Source of the DNA: an uncultured Oscillospiraceae bacterium
Lineage (GTDB): Bacteria > Bacillota > Clostridia > Oscillospirales > Oscillospiraceae
Reading direction: 5' to 3'
NCBI GenBank assembly: GCA_947585425.1
Contig: CANPWZ010000009.1
Location: 1-61,855 of the forward strand
DNA length: 61,855 nucleotides
Notes under the pieces: model-generated
Seen by the model: the letters and a program-made list of their open reading frames with translations, nothing else
The model's database searches: none
Told to the model about the DNA's origin: nothing
Translations under genes and position numbers: made by a program
In this document: positions 17,674 through 54,500 of the stretch, piece by piece
How the letters are laid out: each line of letters opens with the position of its first letter
How positions within the stretch are numbered: position 1 is the first letter of the stretch

Positions 17674-17710
17674 AAAAAACGGGTTTCGACATAGGCGAAA
17701 CCCGTTTTTT
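17674..17710 (+). terminator. Intrinsic terminator after the deacetylase gene
   Basis: A 15-bp stem (AAAAAACGGGTTTCG / CGAAACCCGTTTTTT) with a 7-base loop ending in a T run. Confidence 0.92.
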
Positions 17711-17742: not shown

Positions 17743-17770
17743 TTGACAAAAGGACGCTTCGTGCTATACT
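17743..17770 (+). promoter_or_regulatory. Sigma-A promoter of glnA
   Basis: TTGACA, 16-bp spacer, TATACT. A TTGCA-N4-TGCAA dyad lies just upstream at 17722-17735 and could be an activator or repressor site. Confidence 0.8.
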
Positions 17771-17786
17771 AAGTGCAGAAACGAGA

Positions 17787-17832
17787 GAACAATGACGTTC
17801 CGATTCCCTGGGGGGACGGAGCGCCTTTTTTG
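17787..17832 (+). promoter_or_regulatory. glnA leader attenuator with ANTAR-type hexaloop
   Basis: The leader contains GAAC-AATGAC-GTTC (17787-17800), a 4-bp stem closed by C-G with a six-base loop having A at position 1 and G at position 4, the hallmark of ANTAR protein targets. The following sequence folds as an intrinsic terminator: CGTTCCG (17796-17802) pairs with CGGAGCG (17816-17822) around an inner CCC/GGG stem, then CCTTTTTTG. The GTTC arm is needed by both structures, so they are mutually exclusive. A clear second hexaloop, present in classical two-loop targets, was not found. Confidence 0.7.
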
Positions 17833-17905
17833 TTACTCGTGACGAAAACCAGAAGATCATAGATCTGCGCCCGGCGGAGGCCGGCGCGGGAAAGGGGAAG
17901 TCAAT

Positions 17906-19237
17906 ATGGGATACACCAAGGAAGACATCATCCGCATGGTCAAGGAAGAGGACGTCAAGTTCATCCGCATGCAGTTCACCGACATCTTCGGCCAGCTGAA
18001 GAACGTGGCCATCACCGCCTCCCAGATCGAGAAGGCGGTCAACAACCAGATCATGCTGGACGGCTCCTCCATCGAGGGCTTCGTCCGCATCAACGAGTCC
18101 GACCAGTACCTCTATCCCGATCTGAACAGCTTTGTCATTTTCCCCTGGCGGCCCCAGCACGGCAAGGTGGCCCGCCTGATCTGCGACATCCACAATCCCG
18201 ACGGCTCCCCCTTCGTGGGCGACCCCCGGGGCGTGCTGGAGCGGGTGCTGGAGAAGGCCAGGGCCATGGGCTATGACGACTTCAACGTGGGCCCCGAGGC
18301 CGAGTTTTTCCTGTTCCAGACCGACGAGGAGGGCAAGCCCACCACCAAGACCAACGACGAGGCCGGCTACTTCGACCTGGGCCCCCTGGACCACGGCGAG
18401 TCCACCCGGCGGGAGATCTGCCTGGACCTGGAGCAGATGGGCTATGAGATCGAGGCCAGCCACCACGAGGTGGCCCAGGGCCAGCACGAGATCGACTTCA
18501 AGTACGCCCCCGCCCTGGAGTGCGCCGACAAGATCATGACCTTCAAGCTGGCGGTCAAGACGGTGGCCCAGAAGAACGGCCTCCACGCCACCTTTATGCC
18601 CAAGCCCATCTTCGGCATCAACGGCTCCGGCATGCACACCAATATGTCCCTGTTCCGCAAGGGCAAAAACGTGTTTTACGATCCCAAGGGCGACAAGGGC
18701 CTGTCCAAGGAGTGTTACAGCTTCATCGCCGGCCTGCTCCACCATATGAAGGGTATGGCCGCCATCACCAACCCGCTGGTCAACTCCTACAAGCGGCTGG
18801 TGCCCGGCTACGAGGCCCCCTGCTACATGGCCTGGTCCGCCTCCAACCGCTCCGCCCTGATCCGCATCCCCGCCGCCCGGGGCCAGTCCACCCGCGTGGA
18901 GCTGCGCTGCCCCGACCCCGCCTGCAACCCCTATCTGTCCCTGGCCGTGTGCCTGGCCGCCGGCCTGGACGGCATCGAGAAGGGCATGACCCCGCCCCCG
19001 GAGATCACCGAGAACATCTTTGACATGACCCCCGCCACCCGGCGCCGCCGGGGTATCGACGCCCTGCCCGGCTCCCTGGAGGAGGCCCTGGCGGCCATGA
19101 AGAAGGATAAGCTGGTCATGGAGACCCTGGGCCAGCACGTGAGCAGCCAATATATCGCCGGCAAGGAGGCCGAGTGGGACGAGTACCGCACCCGCGTCTC
19201 CAGCTGGGAGCGCGACAAGTACATGATCAACTACTGA
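17906..19237 (+). CDS. glnA: Glutamine synthetase, type I
   Basis: Makes glutamine from glutamate, ammonia and ATP. The 443-residue protein shows the GSI signatures: [11 protein letters not shown] near the N terminus, [19 protein letters not shown], the ATP-binding [14 protein letters not shown] and [19 protein letters not shown]. At the position of the adenylylated Tyr of enterobacterial enzymes the sequence reads ENIFDM, with Phe, so regulation by adenylylation is not expected. This fits the feedback-inhibited GSI-alpha group. An AAAGGGG site precedes the ATG. Expression is probably controlled by leader attenuation. The ANTAR gene follows at 44 bp. Confidence 0.96.
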
Positions 19238-19281: not shown

Positions 19282-19824
19282 ATGTGGAAGGTGATCGTGG
19301 CCTTCGAGAACAGCGCCAACGCCGTGCGCATCAAGGAGGTCCTGGAGAGCGGCGGCGACTTCTCCTGCATCGTCTGCCGCAGCGCCGCCGGGGTGAAGCG
19401 CACCGCCCGGAAGCTCCGCATCCGCACCGTGGTGTGCGGGTTCAAGCTGCCGGATCAGTCCTGCGAGAGCATGTACCACGACCTGCCGGAGGGCTGCTCC
19501 GTGCTGATGGTGGCTCCCCAGACCCGGCTGGAGCTGTGCGAGACGGAGGGCATCTTCAAGCTCCAGTCCCCCGTCCTCCGGGGGGAGCTGCTGGCCTCGG
19601 TGCGGATGCTGGCCCAGTTCCAGCGCACCGCCCCCAGGGGGAAGGGCAAAGGGCCCGCCCAGCGCTCCGAGGAGGAGCTGGCCCTGGTGGCCAGGGCCAA
19701 GGCGGTGCTCATGGACCGCCACGGCATGACCGAGGAGCAGGCCCATCGGTTCCTGCAAAAGCAGAGCATGGACGCCGGCGCGAAGCTCACCGACACGGCA
19801 AAACTGATCCTGTCCCAGGAATAA
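19282..19824 (+). CDS. ANTAR-domain RNA-binding antiterminator (nitrogen regulator)
   Basis: A 180-residue protein with an N-terminal receiver-like domain (MWKVIVAFENSANAVRIKEVLESGG) that lacks the usual paired acidic residues and phospho-acceptor Asp, and a C-terminal ANTAR helical domain from about residue 125 (LVARAKAVLMDRHGMTEEQAHRFLQKQSMD). ANTAR proteins bind paired hexaloop RNA stems and prevent terminator formation; in clostridia they sit beside glnA, gltB and amt. The missing Asp means the signal is probably protein binding (for example to GlnA or PII) rather than phosphorylation. Co-transcribed with glnA, whose leader holds a matching target. Confidence 0.9.
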   Translation: MWKVIVAFENSANAVRIKEVLESGGDFSCIVCRSAAGVKRTARKLRIRTVVCGFKLPDQSCESMYHDLPEGCSVLMVAPQTRLELCETEGIFKLQSPVLRGELLASVRMLAQFQRTAPRGKGKGPAQRSEEELALVARAKAVLMDRHGMTEEQAHRFLQKQSMDAGAKLTDTAKLILSQE

Positions 19825-19859: not shown

Positions 19860-19927
19860 CGCGCTTTCGCGGGCAAATCCCATAGCGGGACGCCGATTTT
19901 GCAAGTGAAAACCTATCAACTTGCCGA

Positions 19928-19956
19928 TTGACGGGGAAAGAGCCGTATTGTACAAT
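19928..19956 (+). promoter_or_regulatory. Sigma-A promoter of gltBD
   Basis: TTGACG, 17-bp spacer, TACAAT. The motif TTTTGCAAGT occurs before the promoter (19897-19906) and again in the leader (19970-19979). Confidence 0.75.
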
Positions 19957-19965
19957 AAAGAAAAC

Positions 19966-19994
19966 GCATTTTTGCAAGTAAAGACGAAAAATGC
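19966..19994 (+). promoter_or_regulatory. Stem-loop at the 5' end of the gltB leader
   Basis: GCATTTTT (19966-19973) pairs with AAAAATGC (19987-19994) across a 13-base loop, directly after the predicted transcription start and just before the ribosome binding site. It is not a terminator. It could stabilise the mRNA or be a regulator site. Confidence 0.5.
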
Positions 19995-20011
19995 AAGAAG
20001 AGGGTGACCCC

Positions 20012-23000
20012 ATGAGAGGAAACGGACAGGAGCGGCCCCAGGCGCCGCTGTACGATCCCAAATTCGAGCACGACAACTGCGGCATCGGCGCGGTGGTGGA
20101 CATCAAGGGCCGGAAGAGCCACGACACGGTGGACGCGGCCCTGAAGATCGTGGAGAAGCTGGAGCACCGGGCCGGAAAGGACGCCGAGGGCAAGACCGGC
20201 GACGGCGTGGGCGTGATGATGCAGATCTCCCACAGGTTCTTCGCCAAGGCGGCCCGGGAGTGCGGCTTTGAGCTGGGCGGCGAGCGGGACTACGGCGTGG
20301 GGATGTTTTTCTTCCCCCAGGAGACCCTCCGCCGGATGCAGGCCATGAAGATGTTTGAGCTGATCGTGGCCAAGGAGGGCATGGAGTTCATCGGCTGGCG
20401 GCAGGTGCCGGTGGACCGGGCGGTGCTGGGCCACAAGGCCCTGGCCAAGATGCCCTGCATCATGCAGGGGTTCGTCCGCCGGCCCGCCCATCTGGACAAG
20501 GGCCTGCCCTTCGATCGGCGGCTGTACATCGTCCGCCGGGAGTTCGAGCAGTCCAACGACAACACCTATGTGGCCTCCCTGTCCAGCCGGACCATCGTCT
20601 ACAAGGGGATGTTCCTGGTGGGCCAGCTGCGGCAGTTCTATCAGGACCTGCAAAGCCAGGACTACGAGACGGCCATCGCCCTGGTCCACTCGCGGTTCTC
20701 CACCAACACCAACCCCTCCTGGGAGCGGGCCCACCCCAATCGGTTCATCCTCCACAACGGGGAGATCAATACCATCCGGGGCAACGCCGACCGCATGCTG
20801 GCCCGGGAGGAGACCATGCACAGCCCCGTGTGGGCGGACGACATCGACAAGGTGTTCCCCGTCATCGACGAGAGCGGGTCCGACTCCGCCATGCTGGACA
20901 ACACCCTGGAATTTCTGGTGATGAGCGGCATGGAGCTGCCCCTGGCGGTGATGATCTGCATCCCCGAGCCCTGGATGAACAACGAGAACATCAGCCGGGC
21001 CAAGCGGGATCTGTACCAGTATTACGCGGTGATGATGGAGCCCTGGGACGGCCCCGCCTCCATCCTGTTCTCCGACGGGGACCAGGTGGGCGCGGTGCTG
21101 GACCGAAACGGCCTGCGCCCCTCAAGGTACTACGTCACCGACGACGGCAAGCTCATCCTCTCCTCCGAGGTAGGGGTGCTGGACATGGACCCCGCCCGCA
21201 TCGTGAAGAAGTCCCGGCTGGAGCCGGGGCGGATGCTGCTGGTGGACACGGTGAAGGGCCGCATCATCGACGACGACGAGATCAAGGAGACCTACGCCGC
21301 CCGAAACCCCTACGGCGAGTGGCTGGATCGGAACCTGGTGCGGCTGAAGGACCTGCCCATCCCCAACAGGCGGGTGGAGCACTACTCCCCGGAGCGCCGC
21401 ACTCAGGTGCAGAAGGCCTTTGGCTACACCTATGAGGATCTGAAAAACACCATCCTCCCCATGGCCAAAAACGGGGCGGAGGACACCGCCGCCATGGGGG
21501 TAGACATCCCCCTGGCCGTGCTGTCCGACCACGACCAGCCCCTGTTCAACTACTTCAAGCAGCTCTTCGCCCAGGTGACCAACCCGCCCATCGACGCCAT
21601 CCGGGAGGAGATCGTCACCGACACCACCGTGTACGTGGGGGACGACGGCAACCTGCTGGAGGAGACCGCCGACAACTGCCGTGTGCTGCAAATCCACAAC
21701 CCGATTTTGACCTCGGTGGACCTGATGAAGATCAAGGCCATGGACAAGCCGGGGTTCCATGTGGAGACGGTGTCCCTGCTATACTTCAAGAACACCCCCC
21801 TGAAGCGGGCCCTGGACCAGCTGAAGATCGCCGCCGACCGGGCCTACCGCAACGGGGCCAACATCATCATCCTGTCCGACCGGGGGGTGGACGAGAACCA
21901 CGTGGCCATCCCGTCCCTGCTGGCGGTGTCCACCCTGGAGCAGCATCTGGTCCGCACCAAAAAGCGCACCGCCGTGTCGGTCATCCTGGAGTCCGCCGAG
22001 CCCAGGGACGTCCATCACTTCGCCACCCTGCTGGGCTACGGCGCCCGGGCCATCAACCCCTATCTGGCCCAGGAGACCATCGGCCAGCTCATCGACGAGG
22101 GGCTGCTGGACAAGGAGTTCGACGCCGCCGTCAACGACTACAACAGCGCCATCCTCCACGGCATCGTGAAGATCGCCTCCAAAATGGGCATCTCCACCGT
22201 GCAGTCCTACCAGTCGGCCCAGATCTTCGAGGCCATCGGCATCTCCAAAGCGGTGGTGGACGAGTATTTCACCAACACCGTGTCCCGGGTGGAGGGCATC
22301 GGCCTGAAGGAGATCGAGGCCCTGGTGGACCGGAACCACACCCGGGCCTTCGACCCCCTGGGCCTGGGGTGCGACGCCACCCTGGACTCCCGGGGCGCCC
22401 ACAAGGCCCGCGCCGGCCAGGAGGACCACATGTACAACCCCCAGACCATCCATCTCCTCCAGGAGTCCACCCGCCGGGGGGACTATGAGCTGTTCAAGCA
22501 GTACACCGCCCTGGTGGACGACGAGACCAAGCCCCACACCCTCCGGGGCCTCATGGAGATGAAGTATCTGGACGAGCCCATCCCCATCGACGAGGTGGAG
22601 AGCGTGGACTCCATCGTCAAACGGTTCAAGACCGGGGCCATGAGCTACGGCTCCATCTCCCAGGAGGCCCACGAGTGTATGGCCGTCGCCATGAACATGC
22701 TGGGGGGCAAGTCTAACTCCGGCGAGGGGGGCGAGCGGCCCGAGCGGCTGAAATCGGACAAATGCTCCGCCATCAAGCAGGTGGCCTCCGGGCGGTTCGG
22801 CGTCACCAGCGAGTATCTGGTGAGCGCGAAAGAGATCCAGATCAAGATGGCCCAGGGGGCCAAGCCCGGCGAGGGCGGCCACCTCCCCGGCAAAAAGGTG
22901 TACCCCTGGATCGCCAGGACCCGGTACTCCACTCCCGGCGTGGCCCTCATCTCCCCGCCGCCCCACCATGACATCTACTCCATCGAGGATCTGGCCCAGC

Positions 23001-24553
23001 TCATCTACGACCTGAAGAACGCCAACCGGCAGGCCCGCATCTCCGTCAAGCTGGTGAGCGAGGCGGGGGTGGGCACTATCGCCGCCGGCGTGGCCAAGGC
23101 CGGGGCCCAGGTGGTCCTCATCTCCGGGTACGACGGCGGCACCGGCGCCGCCCCGAGGACGTCCATCCACAACGCCGGACTGCCCTGGGAGCTGGGGCTG
23201 GCCGAGACCCACCAGACCCTCATCCAGAACGACCTCCGCTCCCGGGTGGTGGTGGAGACGGATGGCAAGCTCATGTCCGGCCGGGATGTGGCCATCGCCT
23301 GCATGCTGGGGGCGGAGGAGTTCGGCTTCGCCACCGCGCCGCTGGTGACCATGGGCTGCGTGATGATGCGGGTGTGCAATCTGGACACCTGCCCGGTGGG
23401 GGTGGCCACCCAGAATCCCGAGCTGAGGAAGCGTTTTAGAGGCAAGCCGGAGTACGTGGTGAACTTCATGCGGTTCATCGCCCAGGAGCTGCGGGAGCAC
23501 ATGGCCAAACTGGGCGTGCGCACCGTGGAGGAGCTGGTGGGCCGCACCGACCTCTTAAAAGTGAGAGAACACGCCGTCAACGAGCGGGCGGCCACGGTGG
23601 ACCTGTCCGCTATCCTGGGCAACCCCTACATCGGCCCGGAGTACAAGACCCACTTTGACCCCGCCGACGTGTACGACTTCCAGCTGGAAAAGACGGTGGA
23701 TATGTCCGTGCTGCTCTCCAGGCTGGGGACCGCTCTGAAAAAGGGCCAGAAGAAGGACATCTCCCTGGAGGTCAGCTCCACTGATCGGACCGTGGGGGCC
23801 ATCTTCGGCTCGGACATCACCCGGCTCCACGGGGACGCTCTGCCGGAGGACACCTTCACCGTCCGCTGTACAGGCGGCGGCGGGCAGTCCTTCGGGGCCT
23901 TCATCCCCAAGGGCCTCACCCTCACCCTGGAGGGGGACTCCAACGACTACTTCGGCAAGGGGCTGTCCGGCGGCAAGCTGGCGGTGTTCCCGCCGAAAGA
24001 CGCCAAATTCAAAGCGGATGAGAACATCATCATCGGCAATGTGGCCCTGTACGGGGCCACCAGCGGCAAGGCGTTCATCGCCGGCGTGGCCGGGGAACGG
24101 TTCGCCGTGCGCAATTCCGGCGCTTACGCTGTGGTAGAGGGCGTAGGCGACCACGGCTGCGAGTACATGACCGGCGGACGGGTGGTGGTCCTGGGCCCCA
24201 CCGGCAAGAACTTCGCCGCCGGCATGTCGGGGGGAATCGCCTACGTGTGGGACCCCAAGCGGGACCTGTATCTGCGGGTGAACAAGGAGCTGGTGTCCAT
24301 CGAGCCCCTGGAGAGCCGCCACGACATCGAGGAGCTGCGCTCCCTCATCGAGCAGCACGTGGCCGCCACCGGCTCGGAGAAGGGGAAGGCCATCCTGGCC
24401 GACTTCCCCGCCGCCGTGGGCAGCTTCAAGAAGATCCTGCCCAGAGACTACGACCGCATCCTGAAGGCCATCGCTCAGTGTGAGGAGCGGGGCCTGACCC
24501 ACGACGAGGCGGAGGTCGAGGCGTTCTACGCCGTGACGGGAGGTGCCCACTGA
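20012..24553 (+). CDS. gltB: Glutamate synthase (GOGAT) large subunit
   Basis: Transfers the amide of glutamine to 2-oxoglutarate. The 1513-residue protein has an Ntn-type glutaminase domain whose nucleophile should be the Cys in [12 protein letters not shown] near residue 24, exposed after removal of a short propeptide. Then come the central and FMN-binding synthase domains ([36 protein letters not shown]), the 3Fe-4S cysteines ([15 protein letters not shown]) and the C-terminal glycine-rich beta-helix. ATG at 20012 has an AGAGGG site; an in-frame ATG at 19991 lies inside the leader stem-loop. Its stop overlaps the gltD start. Confidence 0.96.
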
Positions 24554-26636: not shown

Positions 26637-28418
26637 TCAGTCTTCGCCCTGCAAGGCGTCGTAGCCGAGCTCGCCGGTGCGGACCTTGACCACCTGTTCC
26701 ACGTCGTAGACGAAGAACTTGCCGTCTCCCACGTGGCCGGTGTAGAGGGCCTTGCGGGCCGCGTCGATGACCGTCTGCACGGGCACCTTGCTGACCACGA
26801 CCTCCACCTTCACCTTGGGCAGCAGCTTCACGCTGTCCAGCTTGACGCCGCGGTAATAGGTGTCGTGGCCCTTCTGGGTGCCGTAGCCCAGGACCTGGGT
26901 CACCGTCATGCCGGTGACGCCGATGTCGTTCATGGCCTTCTTCAGGCCCTCCAGCCGCTCCTGGTTGAACACCATGGAGACCTTGGTGAGCTTGGGCTCG
27001 CCGGGCTCCTTGGCGGCGGGGGCGGAGGCGGCGGGGATGGTCACCTCGGCCGGGGCGGGGACGGAGGCCTCGGGGGCGATCTCGGCCATCACATCGTGGG
27101 CGTTGGTGTCGATGATGCTGAAGCCCGCGTAGGCGGAGGACAGGCCGTGCTCGGTGACGTCCAGGCCGGTGATCTCCTCCTCCTGGCCGGCCCGGAGGCC
27201 CACCAGCGCCCGGATGATCAGGAAGGTGACGGTGATGGTCACGGCGGTGAAGGCGGCGGTGGAGAGCATCCCGATGAGCTGGAGGCCCAGCTGGCGGAAG
27301 CCGCCGCCGTAGAACAGGCCCTTGCCGGCGATCTGGTTGGCGCCGAAGGTGACGCCGTCGCCGATGCCCCGGGCAAAGGCGGGGGCGGTGTCGGTGGCGA
27401 AGAGGCCCACGGCGATGGTGCCCCAGATGCCGTTGAGACAGTGGACCGCCACCGCGCCCACGGGATCGTCCACATGGAGCTTGTAGTCCAGCAGCCACAC
27501 GCCGAACACCACCAGCACGCCGGACACCGCGCCGATGACGATGGCGCCGAAGGCGTCGGTCACGTCACAGGGGGCGGTGATGGCCACCAGCCCCGCCAGG
27601 GAGGCGTTCAGGCACATGGACACGTCGGGCTTGCCGTACTTGAGCCAGGTGAACACCATGCATACCACGGTGGCCACGGCGGGGGCGATGGTGGTGGTCA
27701 GGAAGATGCTGCCCATCTCAGCCACGGACACCGCGGCGGCGCCGTTAAAGCCGTACCAGCCCAGCCAGAGGATGAACACGCCCAGGCAGCCCAGGGGCAG
27801 GCTGTGGCCGGGGAAGGCGTTGACCTTGATCACCTTGCCCTTGGCGTCCCGGACGAATTTGCCCAGCCGGGGCCCCAGGATGGCCGCCCCCACGAAGGCG
27901 CTGATGCCGCCCACCATGTGGATGCAGTTGGAGCCGGCGAAGTCGTGGAAGCCCAACTGGGCCAGCCAGCCGCCGCCCCAGGTCCAGTGGGCCTCGATGG
28001 GGTAGATGATGGCGGAGATGACGGCGGAGTAGATGCAGTAGGACAGGAATTTGGTGCGCTCCGCCATGGCCCCGGACACGATGGTGGCGGTGGTGGCGCA
28101 GAACACCAGGTTGAACACGAAGCCGGAGAAGTCAAAGTTGGCGTAGTCGGTAAAGATGTCGAACCCCGGCTTGCCGATGATGCCGAGCATATCCTCGCCC
28201 AGCAGCAGGCTGGCGCCGATGAGGATGAATACGATGGTGCCGATACAGAAGTCCATCAGGTTTTTCATCAGGATGTTGCCGGAGTTCTTGGCCCGGGTGA
28301 AGCCCGTCTCCACCATGGCGAAGCCGGCCTGCATCCAGAACACCAGCGCGGCCCCGATCAGGAACCACACGCCGAACAGTTCGCCGTGTACGGCGCTCAA
28401 TACTTCTTCCACTGACAT
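26637..28418 (-). CDS. amt: Ammonium transporter fused to a PII signalling domain
   Basis: A 593-residue fusion. Residues 1 to about 420 are an Amt channel with eleven helices, the pore histidines in GFHDFAGSNCIHMVGG and VHCLNGIWGTIAVG, and the opening FWMQAGFAMVETGF. An Ala/Pro/Glu-rich linker (about 440-480) leads to a complete PII domain (about 483-593) with VLGYGTQKGHDTYYRG in the T-loop and the nucleotide-binding TGHVGDGKFFVYDVEQVVKVRTGE. The T-loop Tyr that is uridylylated in proteobacterial PII is not present at its usual place. The PII part should gate or report ammonium flux according to 2-oxoglutarate and ATP/ADP. Confidence 0.94.
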   Translation of the reverse strand: MSVEEVLSAVHGELFGVWFLIGAALVFWMQAGFAMVETGFTRAKNSGNILMKNLMDFCIGTIVFILIGASLLLGEDMLGIIGKPGFDIFTDYANFDFSGFVFNLVFCATTATIVSGAMAERTKFLSYCIYSAVISAIIYPIEAHWTWGGGWLAQLGFHDFAGSNCIHMVGGISAFVGAAILGPRLGKFVRDAKGKVIKVNAFPGHSLPLGCLGVFILWLGWYGFNGAAAVSVAEMGSIFLTTTIAPAVATVVCMVFTWLKYGKPDVSMCLNASLAGLVAITAPCDVTDAFGAIVIGAVSGVLVVFGVWLLDYKLHVDDPVGAVAVHCLNGIWGTIAVGLFATDTAPAFARGIGDGVTFGANQIAGKGLFYGGGFRQLGLQLIGMLSTAAFTAVTITVTFLIIRALVGLRAGQEEEITGLDVTEHGLSSAYAGFSIIDTNAHDVMAEIAPEASVPAPAEVTIPAASAPAAKEPGEPKLTKVSMVFNQERLEGLKKAMNDIGVTGMTVTQVLGYGTQKGHDTYYRGVKLDSVKLLPKVKVEVVVSKVPVQTVIDAARKALYTGHVGDGKFFVYDVEQVVKVRTGELGYDALQGED

Positions 28419-52253: not shown

Positions 52254-54500
52254 TTAATCGGACAGATTAGCTATATCCTGTGTTAACTGCTCCTGTGCTT
52301 TTCTATATTTCTTTTGAAGCGTTAAAAAGTCTTTCAACTTTGTTTGAACAAAAGCTCGCTGTTCTGTGTATGGGATATAGTCAATATAGTAGTCCTTAAA
52401 CATATCCGGCGATATAGTCAGCTTTGATGTTCCATCCGCTAAGTCAGAAATAATTTGCTTCCTCATGGACGCAAAATAACAATTATAAAATTCTAAGTCA
52501 ATCGGATATTGGGGGTCGCATTTGCTTGTTAAGACAAGGCATAGATTGCTCGCAATAAATTTGCCTTTGACATAGTGGCTACGCCCTAAAGAACCTGCCG
52601 CACTAACGGCATATACAATCGCCTCTGTATCAAGGGCGTATTCTGTATGCGATTTCCATTCTTCGCTTGCCGTCACAAAGGGATAGTCGCCGTCAATATT
52701 GCTTTCACTTGCAAGCGTCCCTTTAGTTACATGAAACAACGTGCTAACTTTTACCATTTCATAGTTGCTATTTCGCCGCTTTTGTACGCCCGCGCAGTTC
52801 AAAACGCCATCCTTATATATCTTTTTCTTTTGGCATACCCCCGGTATCTCTTTTGAATTGGAAATAGCGTCAAAGATTGTGTTCTCAATTTCAGGCCAAG
52901 TTCCATTTTTGTCGATCCGTCCTTTATGCTGAATGCTTACAAAGCCGTCGTCATCCAGATTATAAAATAGAACGTCATCGGATTGAATATGCGGGGTTTT
53001 TGTAAAGCCAAAAATAGACGTATTCACGGTTCGTTTCTGTTCTGAAAACAACTTATTTGGCATTTTAATAACATACTCCAGTTTTGCCATAGACAAAACT
53101 TTTTCCGTTAATCCCCCTTGATTATGTGTCAAGGTAGGTGTGGGCATGATTATAACAAGTTTCCCACCCGGTTCAAGGTAATTCAAGGCTTGAATCGTAA
53201 ATTTGATAGGGTTATTATTCTCATAAGGCGGATTGATAATAACCCTTGTGGGCTTCATGCTGCGTATATATTCAAGCAGTTCTTTATCGCTATTATTGAC
53301 TATACCACCTTGTGTTTCGTCAAGCAGGCTACTTCTGTATAGCAAACTGGTTCTTCCATCGCCATGCAGGAACATATTTGAACACGCAAGGGCAAAAAGG
53401 ACAGAATCTATTTCAAAGCCGATGAGTTGTTTTTCTTTGATGTTTGTAATTGCCGTTTCGCTGCCCTTTGCCAGTGCAATCATTGTTTCCATAGCTTCCA
53501 TTAGAAAGCCGCCCGAACCTGCACAAGTGTCTAATACTACATCCTTAACAGACAGCCGCGCTAACCTAACCATCAGTTCTTTTATATGGTCAGGCGTTAG
53601 GATAATATTTTTGTTGTCTACTTTTCCTGCGCGAGAAAGGAAGATTTTGTATGCTCGCCCTAAAATGTCCTGCTTTTCTTCATTTTGGAAAGGATAAAAT
53701 ATTTTTTCCTCAACGATGCCTATGATTTTCTTATATTCATCAAGAGTATAATCTATATTCTTGATGAAAGAAAATTTGTCGCGCCAACTAAACTCTTTAG
53801 ATAGACTGTTAATTTTGCTCTCAAGTTCAGTTGTTATAGCTTCAAGAATAGCTTTATTGAGATTATGTGCTTCAAGAACTGTTGCTTTTGTTGTCGCAAC
53901 TTCCTGCTTTGATGGGGCCTGAATGTTCTTGTATGTACTTCTAAAATTATTGTTTTTAAGTGCTATCATCAGACCAGAAAAGAACAAACTACGGTCGGTA
54001 TCACGAACCTTGTTATTATCGTTAAAACGCTTGTTCAAATCTTTTAATACCGTTATAAGGGCTTCCGTTGTTACGCTTTCCCCATACTTTGATTTTATAT
54101 ACTGCTTTTTGATTGCAGGAATTGAAAGCAATGTGTTTTCCTGCGGGAACGGTTTAATTTCAGTCATTCCCATAAGTTTCAGGTAATAGGACACGGAAAT
54201 ACTTTCCCGCGACTGTCCAGATACACTAATGCCGATAATATCCTTGTGTATCTTATTATTTATCATGTAATACTGTACTTCGTCCTGTGCTGCTGCATGG
54301 TCTGTTGCTTTAGCTTCAACTACAATACAATAGTCATCGCCGTCACAGAAAAAATCAGGATAGCCACTATAAGATGTGCCTTTTTTTGATGTAAAACCAT
54401 AGCCGGACGGTATAGCTGATTTCTCTATGAATGTATTTGCTCCATAAAAATCACGAAAAAGGTTTTCTGTTACCGTTTCGCTAACCTTTTTCCTTGCCAT
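52254..54500 (-). CDS. Single-chain restriction-modification enzyme (Type IIG-like, R-M-S)
   Basis: A 748-residue protein with three parts. Residues 1 to about 130 resemble the HsdR N-terminal nuclease: GYPDFFCDGDDYCIVVEAKATDH has the PD...ExK arrangement (Asp 49, Glu 62, Lys 64). Residues about 270-560 are an N6-adenine methyltransferase with motif I VVLDTCAGSGGFL and motif IV INPPYENN. From about 578 an HsdS-like target recognition domain follows (YEMVKVSTLFHVTKG, YPFVTASEEW) with a helical tail (LTLQKKYRKAQEQLTQDI). Such proteins methylate and cut asymmetric sites unaided. ATG 54500 has a weak AAAGG site. Codon use marks it as acquired. Confidence 0.86.
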   Translation of the reverse strand: MARKKVSETVTENLFRDFYGANTFIEKSAIPSGYGFTSKKGTSYSGYPDFFCDGDDYCIVVEAKATDHAAAQDEVQYYMINNKIHKDIIGISVSGQSRESISVSYYLKLMGMTEIKPFPQENTLLSIPAIKKQYIKSKYGESVTTEALITVLKDLNKRFNDNNKVRDTDRSLFFSGLMIALKNNNFRSTYKNIQAPSKQEVATTKATVLEAHNLNKAILEAITTELESKINSLSKEFSWRDKFSFIKNIDYTLDEYKKIIGIVEEKIFYPFQNEEKQDILGRAYKIFLSRAGKVDNKNIILTPDHIKELMVRLARLSVKDVVLDTCAGSGGFLMEAMETMIALAKGSETAITNIKEKQLIGFEIDSVLFALACSNMFLHGDGRTSLLYRSSLLDETQGGIVNNSDKELLEYIRSMKPTRVIINPPYENNNPIKFTIQALNYLEPGGKLVIIMPTPTLTHNQGGLTEKVLSMAKLEYVIKMPNKLFSEQKRTVNTSIFGFTKTPHIQSDDVLFYNLDDDGFVSIQHKGRIDKNGTWPEIENTIFDAISNSKEIPGVCQKKKIYKDGVLNCAGVQKRRNSNYEMVKVSTLFHVTKGTLASESNIDGDYPFVTASEEWKSHTEYALDTEAIVYAVSAAGSLGRSHYVKGKFIASNLCLVLTSKCDPQYPIDLEFYNCYFASMRKQIISDLADGTSKLTISPDMFKDYYIDYIPYTEQRAFVQTKLKDFLTLQKKYRKAQEQLTQDIANLSD

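Follow-up and report, generated by a model that had tools for sequence, protein, structure and literature searches.

A class of ANTAR target RNAs that precede glutamine synthase and glutamate synthase genes is already in print (PMC3369931). There, the target is defined as two loops, eutP is no longer induced once the first of them is deleted, and a single loop is bound more weakly. The leader of the glutamine synthetase gene, glnA, in an uncultured Oscillospiraceae bacterium raises the question of whether a single loop can do the work of two. We analyzed a 61,855 nucleotide stretch of this genome (contig CANPWZ010000009.1; hereafter, the window), for which a prediction made from the letters alone had placed one such loop near the 5′ end of the glnA transcript, and had allowed that the site was either a minimal one-loop form or one with an unusual partner loop.

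The glnA leader and its operon

The features described below lie on the forward strand unless stated otherwise. A promoter scan placed a −35 hexamer, TTGACA, at 17743–17748 and an extended −10 hexamer, TATACT preceded by TG, at 17765–17770, with a spacer of 16 nucleotides and 11 of 12 consensus matches; TTGACA is also present in most relatives, and the −10 hexamer is likewise supported by the relatives' leaders. Transcription is predicted to start near 17777, approximately 7 nucleotides past the −10 hexamer, which leaves 10 nucleotides of predicted transcript 5′ of the hairpin, in keeping with the original prediction. The hairpin itself, GAAC-AATGAC-GTTC, occupies 17787–17800 (GAAC, 17787–17790; loop AATGAC, 17791–17796; GTTC, 17797–17800), and has the marks of an ANTAR loop that the original prediction had given it, namely six loop nucleotides with A1 and G4 and a C-G closing pair; its stem also reaches the minimum of 3 bp that defines such loops. 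Between 17640 and 17840, three loops combine A or G at position 1, G4, and at least 3 bp; 4 bp are reached only in the 17787–17800 hairpin. Upstream of the promoter, an inverted repeat with A- and T-run flanks (17674–17710, assigned to neither strand; the 17679–17716 fold is −15.0 kcal/mol) is a likely bidirectional terminator and may shield the glnA promoter from upstream transcription.

The 443-residue glutamine synthetase (17906–19237; PF00120, E 4.9e-138) is followed, after 44 nucleotides and on the same strand, by a gene for a 180-residue NitR-like ANTAR protein (19282–19824; PF03861, E 2.8e-16), the sole ANTAR detected in the genome (a 2.0-Mb assembly with a completeness rating of 98%). 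This is the NitR-type glnA–ANTAR operon layout; the Clostridium saccharobutylicum NitR gene, too, presumably adjoins glnA. That the ANTAR gene lies immediately downstream of glnA, as first predicted, extends to 105 of the 106 usable loci described below, all of them retrieved by ANTAR similarity. At the gathering score, Rfam (glutamine riboswitch, T-box, and others) returned only tRNAs in the window; nothing came near that score in the glnA leader, and five other loci likewise yielded no Rfam family.

Further downstream, gltB (glutamate synthase; 19991–24553, by profile match) has a leader in which no convincing hexaloop with terminator was found. Its promoter region, 19897–19994, holds a direct repeat, TTTTGCAAGT, at 19897–19906 and 19970–19979, and an inverted repeat, GCATTTTT...AAAAATGC; these repeats are perhaps the site of a DNA-binding regulator. 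Just downstream of gltBD, on the reverse strand at 26637–28418, lies the gene for a 593-residue protein that we read as ammonium-transporter-like; it ends in a P-II domain (PF00543, E 5.4e-24), and no other P-II match was found genome-wide.

The ANTAR protein comprises a degenerate receiver-like domain and an ANTAR domain at residues 127–177, with the PF03861 match scoring 59.5 bits against a cut-off of 27.3; Pfam names no receiver domain in it. The protein aligns with Rv1626 over its full length; its ANTAR region also aligns with NasR, EutV, and AmiR. The phospho-acceptor Asp of Rv1626 (IMDVKMP) aligns with Gly (VCGFKL), which is found in 15 of 16 rows of the alignment, with Ala in L030. Judged by its sequence, this is a pseudo-receiver ANTAR of the AmiR class in which the phospho-acceptor Asp is missing, and because Gly replaces that residue the protein is probably not phosphorylated. 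We also compared the EutV residues discussed in the protein:RNA interactions and Discussion sections of PMC8934654. Read from the alignment, Lys149, Glu160, and Met172 are kept (Lys140, Glu151, and Met163 here), while Lys147 is changed to Arg138, Arg142 to Leu133, Lys143 to Ala134, and Tyr164 to His155; the last three changes are evidence against attenuation through one loop.

An intrinsic terminator spans 17796–17831. Its main helix pairs CGTTCCG (17796–17802) with CGGAGCG (17817–17823), its upper helix pairs 17804–17808 with 17812–17816, and a U6 tract (TTTTTT) lies at 17826–17831. The terminator 5′ arm takes in hexaloop position 6 together with the hairpin strand GTTC that follows it; the original prediction had this 3′ hairpin arm doubling as the 5′ arm of a terminator that ends in TTTTTT, and the overlap is indeed found at 17796–17800. 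An automated terminator scan did not list the structure, probably on account of the scan's 8 nucleotide loop limit. In the full leader fold, an outer helix joins ACGAG (17781–17785) to CTCGT (17836–17840), its 3′ side lying downstream of the U-tract. When growing transcripts were folded, the hexaloop was optimal at the tested lengths of 26–42 nucleotides and the terminator from 46 nucleotides onwards; for the 52 nucleotide transcript, the enforced hexaloop reached −8.9 kcal/mol vs −17.1 kcal/mol for the terminator. The two structures are thus mutually exclusive in these folds, by which the ANTAR protein would have an interval of approximately 20 nucleotides in which to act.

Recurrence and covariation of the hairpin in relatives

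Taken alone, the window hairpin is modest evidence: when the 60 nucleotides after the −10 hexamer were shuffled by dinucleotide, an equivalent arose in 136 of 5000 rounds; relatives were therefore gathered, and the significance rests on them. Similarity to the ANTAR protein furnished 35 loci from named contigs and 80 regions from searches of the family, order, and class, 116 loci in all with the window. Ten were dropped for having no glnA or no glnA start in the stretch (L023, L032, L034–L036, L094, L101, L103, L105, and L142), and 106 had a usable glnA start and enough upstream sequence. Removal of loci with a promoter score below 9.3 left 98, and removal of leaders that were too short or duplicated in their first 40 nucleotides left 90. 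The strict test demanded a C-G-closed hexaloop with A or G at position 1, G4, at least 4 bp, and a stem start within 30 nucleotides of the −10 hexamer. It was passed by 62 of the 90 distinct glnA leaders, as compared to a mean of 1.77 and a maximum of 6 in 200 rounds of shuffling; the leaders share ancestry, and 62 is therefore not a count of independent events. Stems in the passing leaders start 3–26 nucleotides after the −10 hexamer. Two of the 62 are doubtful: L071, for which the promoter was wrongly chosen (as it was for L087), and L083, with the loop GGCGGG. In L081, the first loop match was wrong.

By reading, the 28 leaders that failed the strict test are of several sorts: i) short or interrupted stems with 2–3 contiguous bp (L030, L031, L085, L099, L145, L156, L157, L158, L171, and L172), ii) sites farther from the chosen promoter (L095, L144, L159, and L174), iii) altered loops (one of seven bases in L082, and one in L141 that has its G at position 5), iv) a miscalled promoter (L087), and v) leaders in which no hexaloop was seen despite the ANTAR gene (L017–L020, L070, L084, L088, and a few more). 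The loopless glnA leaders of close relatives that possess the ANTAR gene, L017–L020 together with L070 and L067 (from congeners G066 and G145, respectively), are real evidence against a universal rule.

A leader model built from 27 sequences, the window's included, picked out only the window site below E 0.2 in its own genome (E 2.7e-8, the next at 0.24; 150 of 3317 candidates scored). Across the genus, the model hit 27 of 37 genomes (own included) at E 0.01, with E below 1e-5 in 23; the other ten had nothing at that threshold. Outside the genus, 6 of 23 genomes from the order matched, all more weakly. Weak matches in other families of the order (G152, G155, G156, G157, G163, and G167; E 2.7e-5 to 0.0099) are possibly further ANTAR targets, or chance. 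A pattern search of the window's own genome gave one perfect match and, with up to three mismatches, 94 matches vs 49 for the reversed-pattern control, approximately twofold. A TAATC-AAGGGG-GATTA hexaloop accompanied by promoter-like and terminator-like matches lies at 53124 of the window on the reverse strand. Two NitR-like proteins per genome are encoded by G118 (L074, L089), G022 (L077, L091), G280 (L137, L138), and G087 (L081, L087), and each of these proteins is encoded next to a separate glnA copy whose leader has one loop (L087 by eye).

Leaders lacking an ANTAR neighbor were sought by searching with GlnA 48 genomes among those listed without a match to the NitR-like profile. From the 30 loci returned, 25 leaders with an intact GlnA N-terminus were kept, a small control in that close homologues (>60% identity) account for no more than 6 of them. 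The motif was present near the promoter in one of the 25, L181, where the contig ends inside glnA and the neighboring gene is not visible; four more (L177, L180, L198, and L199) had the loop elsewhere in 300 nucleotides. The L180 hairpin, TAAC-AAGGCA-GTTA, sits just after TAAAAT and looks like a genuine-type site.

Covariation of the GAAC/GTTC stem had been proposed as a check on the original prediction. For this analysis, sites were selected by loop and closing pair only, as the first C[AG]NNGNNG 6–45 nucleotides after the −10 hexamer, and 65 distinct 20-mers were aligned (alignment A2). As relatives were selected on the closing C-G pair, conservation there is not independent evidence; four false picks that were shifted by the aligner (L083, L088, L143, and L154) stay in the counts. 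For the closing pair and the next three, 91.4% of cells were paired vs 85.3% in shuffles, double changes were seen in 24 cells vs 10.9 ± 2.5, and the covariation score was 0.41 vs 0.29, with none of 500 shuffles reaching any of these values. Structures slid along the alignment were 33–56% paired and scored 0.07–0.29; slides of +1 and +2 keep 21–22 double-change cells. Of the two measures that relatedness inflates least, the number of pairs with double changes stood at 3 vs 2.8 shuffled, and that of further pair types at 9 vs 7.3 (reached by 50 of 500 shuffles, or by 21 of 500 when a fifth pair was added). Among 16 mutually divergent sites, pairs 2–4 were formed in 33 of 48 cells vs 23.9 (2 of 2000 shuffles reach), with corresponding values of 20 of 30 vs 14.4 for ten divergent sites (25 of 2000) and 16 of 24 vs 10.1 for eight (18 of 2000). 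Covariation of the hexaloop stem is present and comes mostly from pair 2; the check came out in favor of the stem by most measures, while the pair-count and pair-type measures are weak.

These data bear on a simpler reading, that of an ordinary attenuator or terminator in which GAAC belongs to an A-rich 5′ flank pairing with the U-tract side, the hexaloop is a by-product, and regulation is of another kind or absent. Full-length folds do pair the GAACAA region with UUGUU past the U-tract, the 5′ arm in L016 could lengthen the terminator stem, and the weakness of the count-based covariation measures points the same way. However, the 5′ arm is dispensable for the terminator, both stem arms change together in distant relatives (AAAAAC/GTTTTT, AAGGGC/GCTTTT, and GTAGAC/GTTTAC, for example), and the hairpin is kept in L160, L162, and L168, where no terminator was found. 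We regard this simpler reading as improbable.

The terminator recurs together with the hairpin. A terminator overlapping the hexaloop was present in 49 of the 62 leaders (the window and 48 others), as compared to a mean of 9.4 and a maximum of 13 with shuffled tails; under this test, 13 of the 62 have none. In 27 close leaders, 98.6% of terminator helix cells are paired, with 4 double changes vs 0.9 shuffled (2 of 500 reach). This overlap, with some compensatory changes, and a likely ribosome-binding site approximately 90 nucleotides downstream of the hairpin speak against RNA stability or translation, instead of termination, being the main output of the ANTAR site. Such an output would be in line with ANTAR translational repression in mycobacteria, as reported in PMC8164766, with the U-poor tails of several leaders, and with the strong 5′-terminal hexaloops of L160, L162, and L168 that have no terminator by the test; for the glnA leader we consider it very improbable. 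The hexaloop stems of these three glnA leaders are 7–11 bp long with no recognizable terminator, and translational or stability control is perhaps at work there.

One loop or two

Between the −10 hexamer and the stem, a second hexaloop was found in none of the 62 leaders. The stem starts 3–18 nucleotides after the −10 hexamer in 60 of the 62, leaving, given the predicted start, at most approximately 12 nucleotides of 5′ RNA. Second hexaloops downstream are not enriched either, with 4 of 62 vs a shuffle mean of 7.4, and the window's leader does not possess the tandem hairpins, joined by a short linker, of a dual-hexaloop target. The minimal one-loop form is borne out by these counts; the unusual partner loop, the other option originally allowed for, finds no support in them.

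As a positive control for two-loop sites, eutP loci gave no convincing site, and ANTAR loci of other Bacillota were used in their place. Their 16 sites were picked by hand because many scan matches lay inside genes; four of the 16 have a pair of hexaloops, and two of these four (in L242 and L256) precede glnA. One-loop sites precede glnA in other Bacillota as well (L237, L241, L244, L246, L250, L251, and the second glnA of L256). With upstream loops in 0 of 62 leaders from a scan that does find two-loop sites elsewhere, the one-loop form at glnA looks real and recurrent.

The gltB leaders of congeners G066, G331, and G145 (L258, L259, and L260) are organized otherwise, with two hexaloops and a terminator around them. 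The stem of the 5′ hexaloop is 5 bp long in G066 and 4 bp long in G145, and 3 bp were read by eye in G331; the downstream hexaloop sits in the apical region of the terminator and shows compensatory changes (CGGAC/GTCTG, CGGGC/GCCCG, and CGAAC/GTTCG). The gltB site of these congeners is a two-loop site with a differing layout. In L006–L016, a single GCCC-AA[CT]GGG-GGGC hexaloop (GTCC in L012) opens a terminator-like repeat before gltB.

The apical gltB hexaloop of the three congeners is one reason to ask whether the glnA target is also in two parts, with a second, non-canonical element: a loop of another size, the loop at the terminator apex, or one on a second nascent transcript to which the protein dimer would form a bridge. 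Canonical targets are dual (PMC3369931), the terminator loop of the window holds a weak CTG-GGGGGA-CGG, and L237, which belongs to another class, has ahead of its hexaloop a CCTA-AATTAA-TAGG hairpin whose six loop bases lack G4. The absence of upstream hexaloops, the scant predicted 5′ room, and the lack of downstream enrichment described above all weigh against a two-part target, and we judge it unlikely.

A model for one-loop attenuation and its relation to known systems

Taken together, we favor as likely a model in which the glnA leader is an attenuator, and the single A1/G4 hexaloop is the whole antiterminator, bound by the ANTAR protein that its own operon encodes. The hexaloop hairpin would form first, at the 5′ end of the RNA. 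By default, the terminator would displace it once the terminator 3′ arm is made, and transcription would end before glnA. Active ANTAR protein, most likely under nitrogen limitation, a signal suggested by the gene content and by the reported role of NitR (PMC6316151), would bind the loop in the short interval before the terminator is complete; holding the loop and the 3′ arm, it would allow the polymerase to read into glnA and into the ANTAR gene itself. Activity of the protein would probably be gated by a protein partner and not a kinase, given a receiver without the phospho-acceptor Asp and the precedent of AmiR (PMC8934654 and PMC7496416). The adjacency of the genes prompts the guess that GlnA itself is that partner.

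In PMC8934654, EutV binds isolated single hexaloops in vitro and one hexaloop is the minimal binding site. Both hexaloops are reported to be necessary for antitermination, for EutV in vivo (PMC8934654, PMC3369931), and NasR was seen to bind one hairpin only at about 12 μM (PMC3369931, PMC7496416); the EutV requirement for both hairpins and the weak single-hairpin binding of NasR are evidence against one-loop attenuation. PMC8934654 names the EutX RNA as possibly having just one loop, and poses the role of single hexaloops as a question.

A bolder proposal, which we put forward tentatively and at somewhat less than even weight, is that these leaders represent a separate and widespread ANTAR class whose lone hexaloop sits right at the 5′ terminus of the transcript and which needs no recruitment hairpin, in which the 5′ position and the same-operon protein would replace the first loop, and which would be partner-gated, possibly by glutamine synthetase. 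If glutamine synthetase is the partner, glnA would be the feedback sensor of its own transcript. The published searches in PMC3369931 and PMC8164766, which define the target as two loops, would tend to miss a one-loop class, and control of glnA may be under-annotated in many gut Clostridia. Searches of open papers turned up no account of a one-loop ANTAR attenuator before glnA. The glnA leaders thus offer candidates for naturally occurring attenuation through one loop at a gene central to nitrogen metabolism, and make the question raised in PMC8934654 directly testable.

Among known systems, NitR of Clostridium saccharobutylicum is an ANTAR-family antitermination protein that induces genes of the GS/GOGAT cycle under nitrogen limitation, according to the review PMC6316151, and the ANTAR gene of the window likewise neighbors GS/GOGAT genes. 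With AmiR the window's protein shares a receiver-like domain without the phospho-acceptor (PMC8934654 and PMC7496416) and, in the alignment, His at the position of EutV Tyr164; unlike for AmiR, the gene adjoining the ANTAR gene here is glnA. The leader resembles the dual-hexaloop targets EutV/eutP, NasR/nasF, and AmiR/amiE in its short C-G-closed stem, its six-base loop with A1 and G4, the overlap of the last hairpin with an intrinsic terminator, and its place upstream of nitrogen genes. It differs from them in that the first (recruitment) hairpin and the linker are absent and the loop lies where the transcript is predicted to begin; among the 65 distinct sites of the relatives, 18 have G as the first loop base, and at least three of those 18 are false picks. 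Since one defining feature, the two loops, is lacking, we class the glnA leader as a variant whose proposed action resembles that of the dual-hexaloop family.
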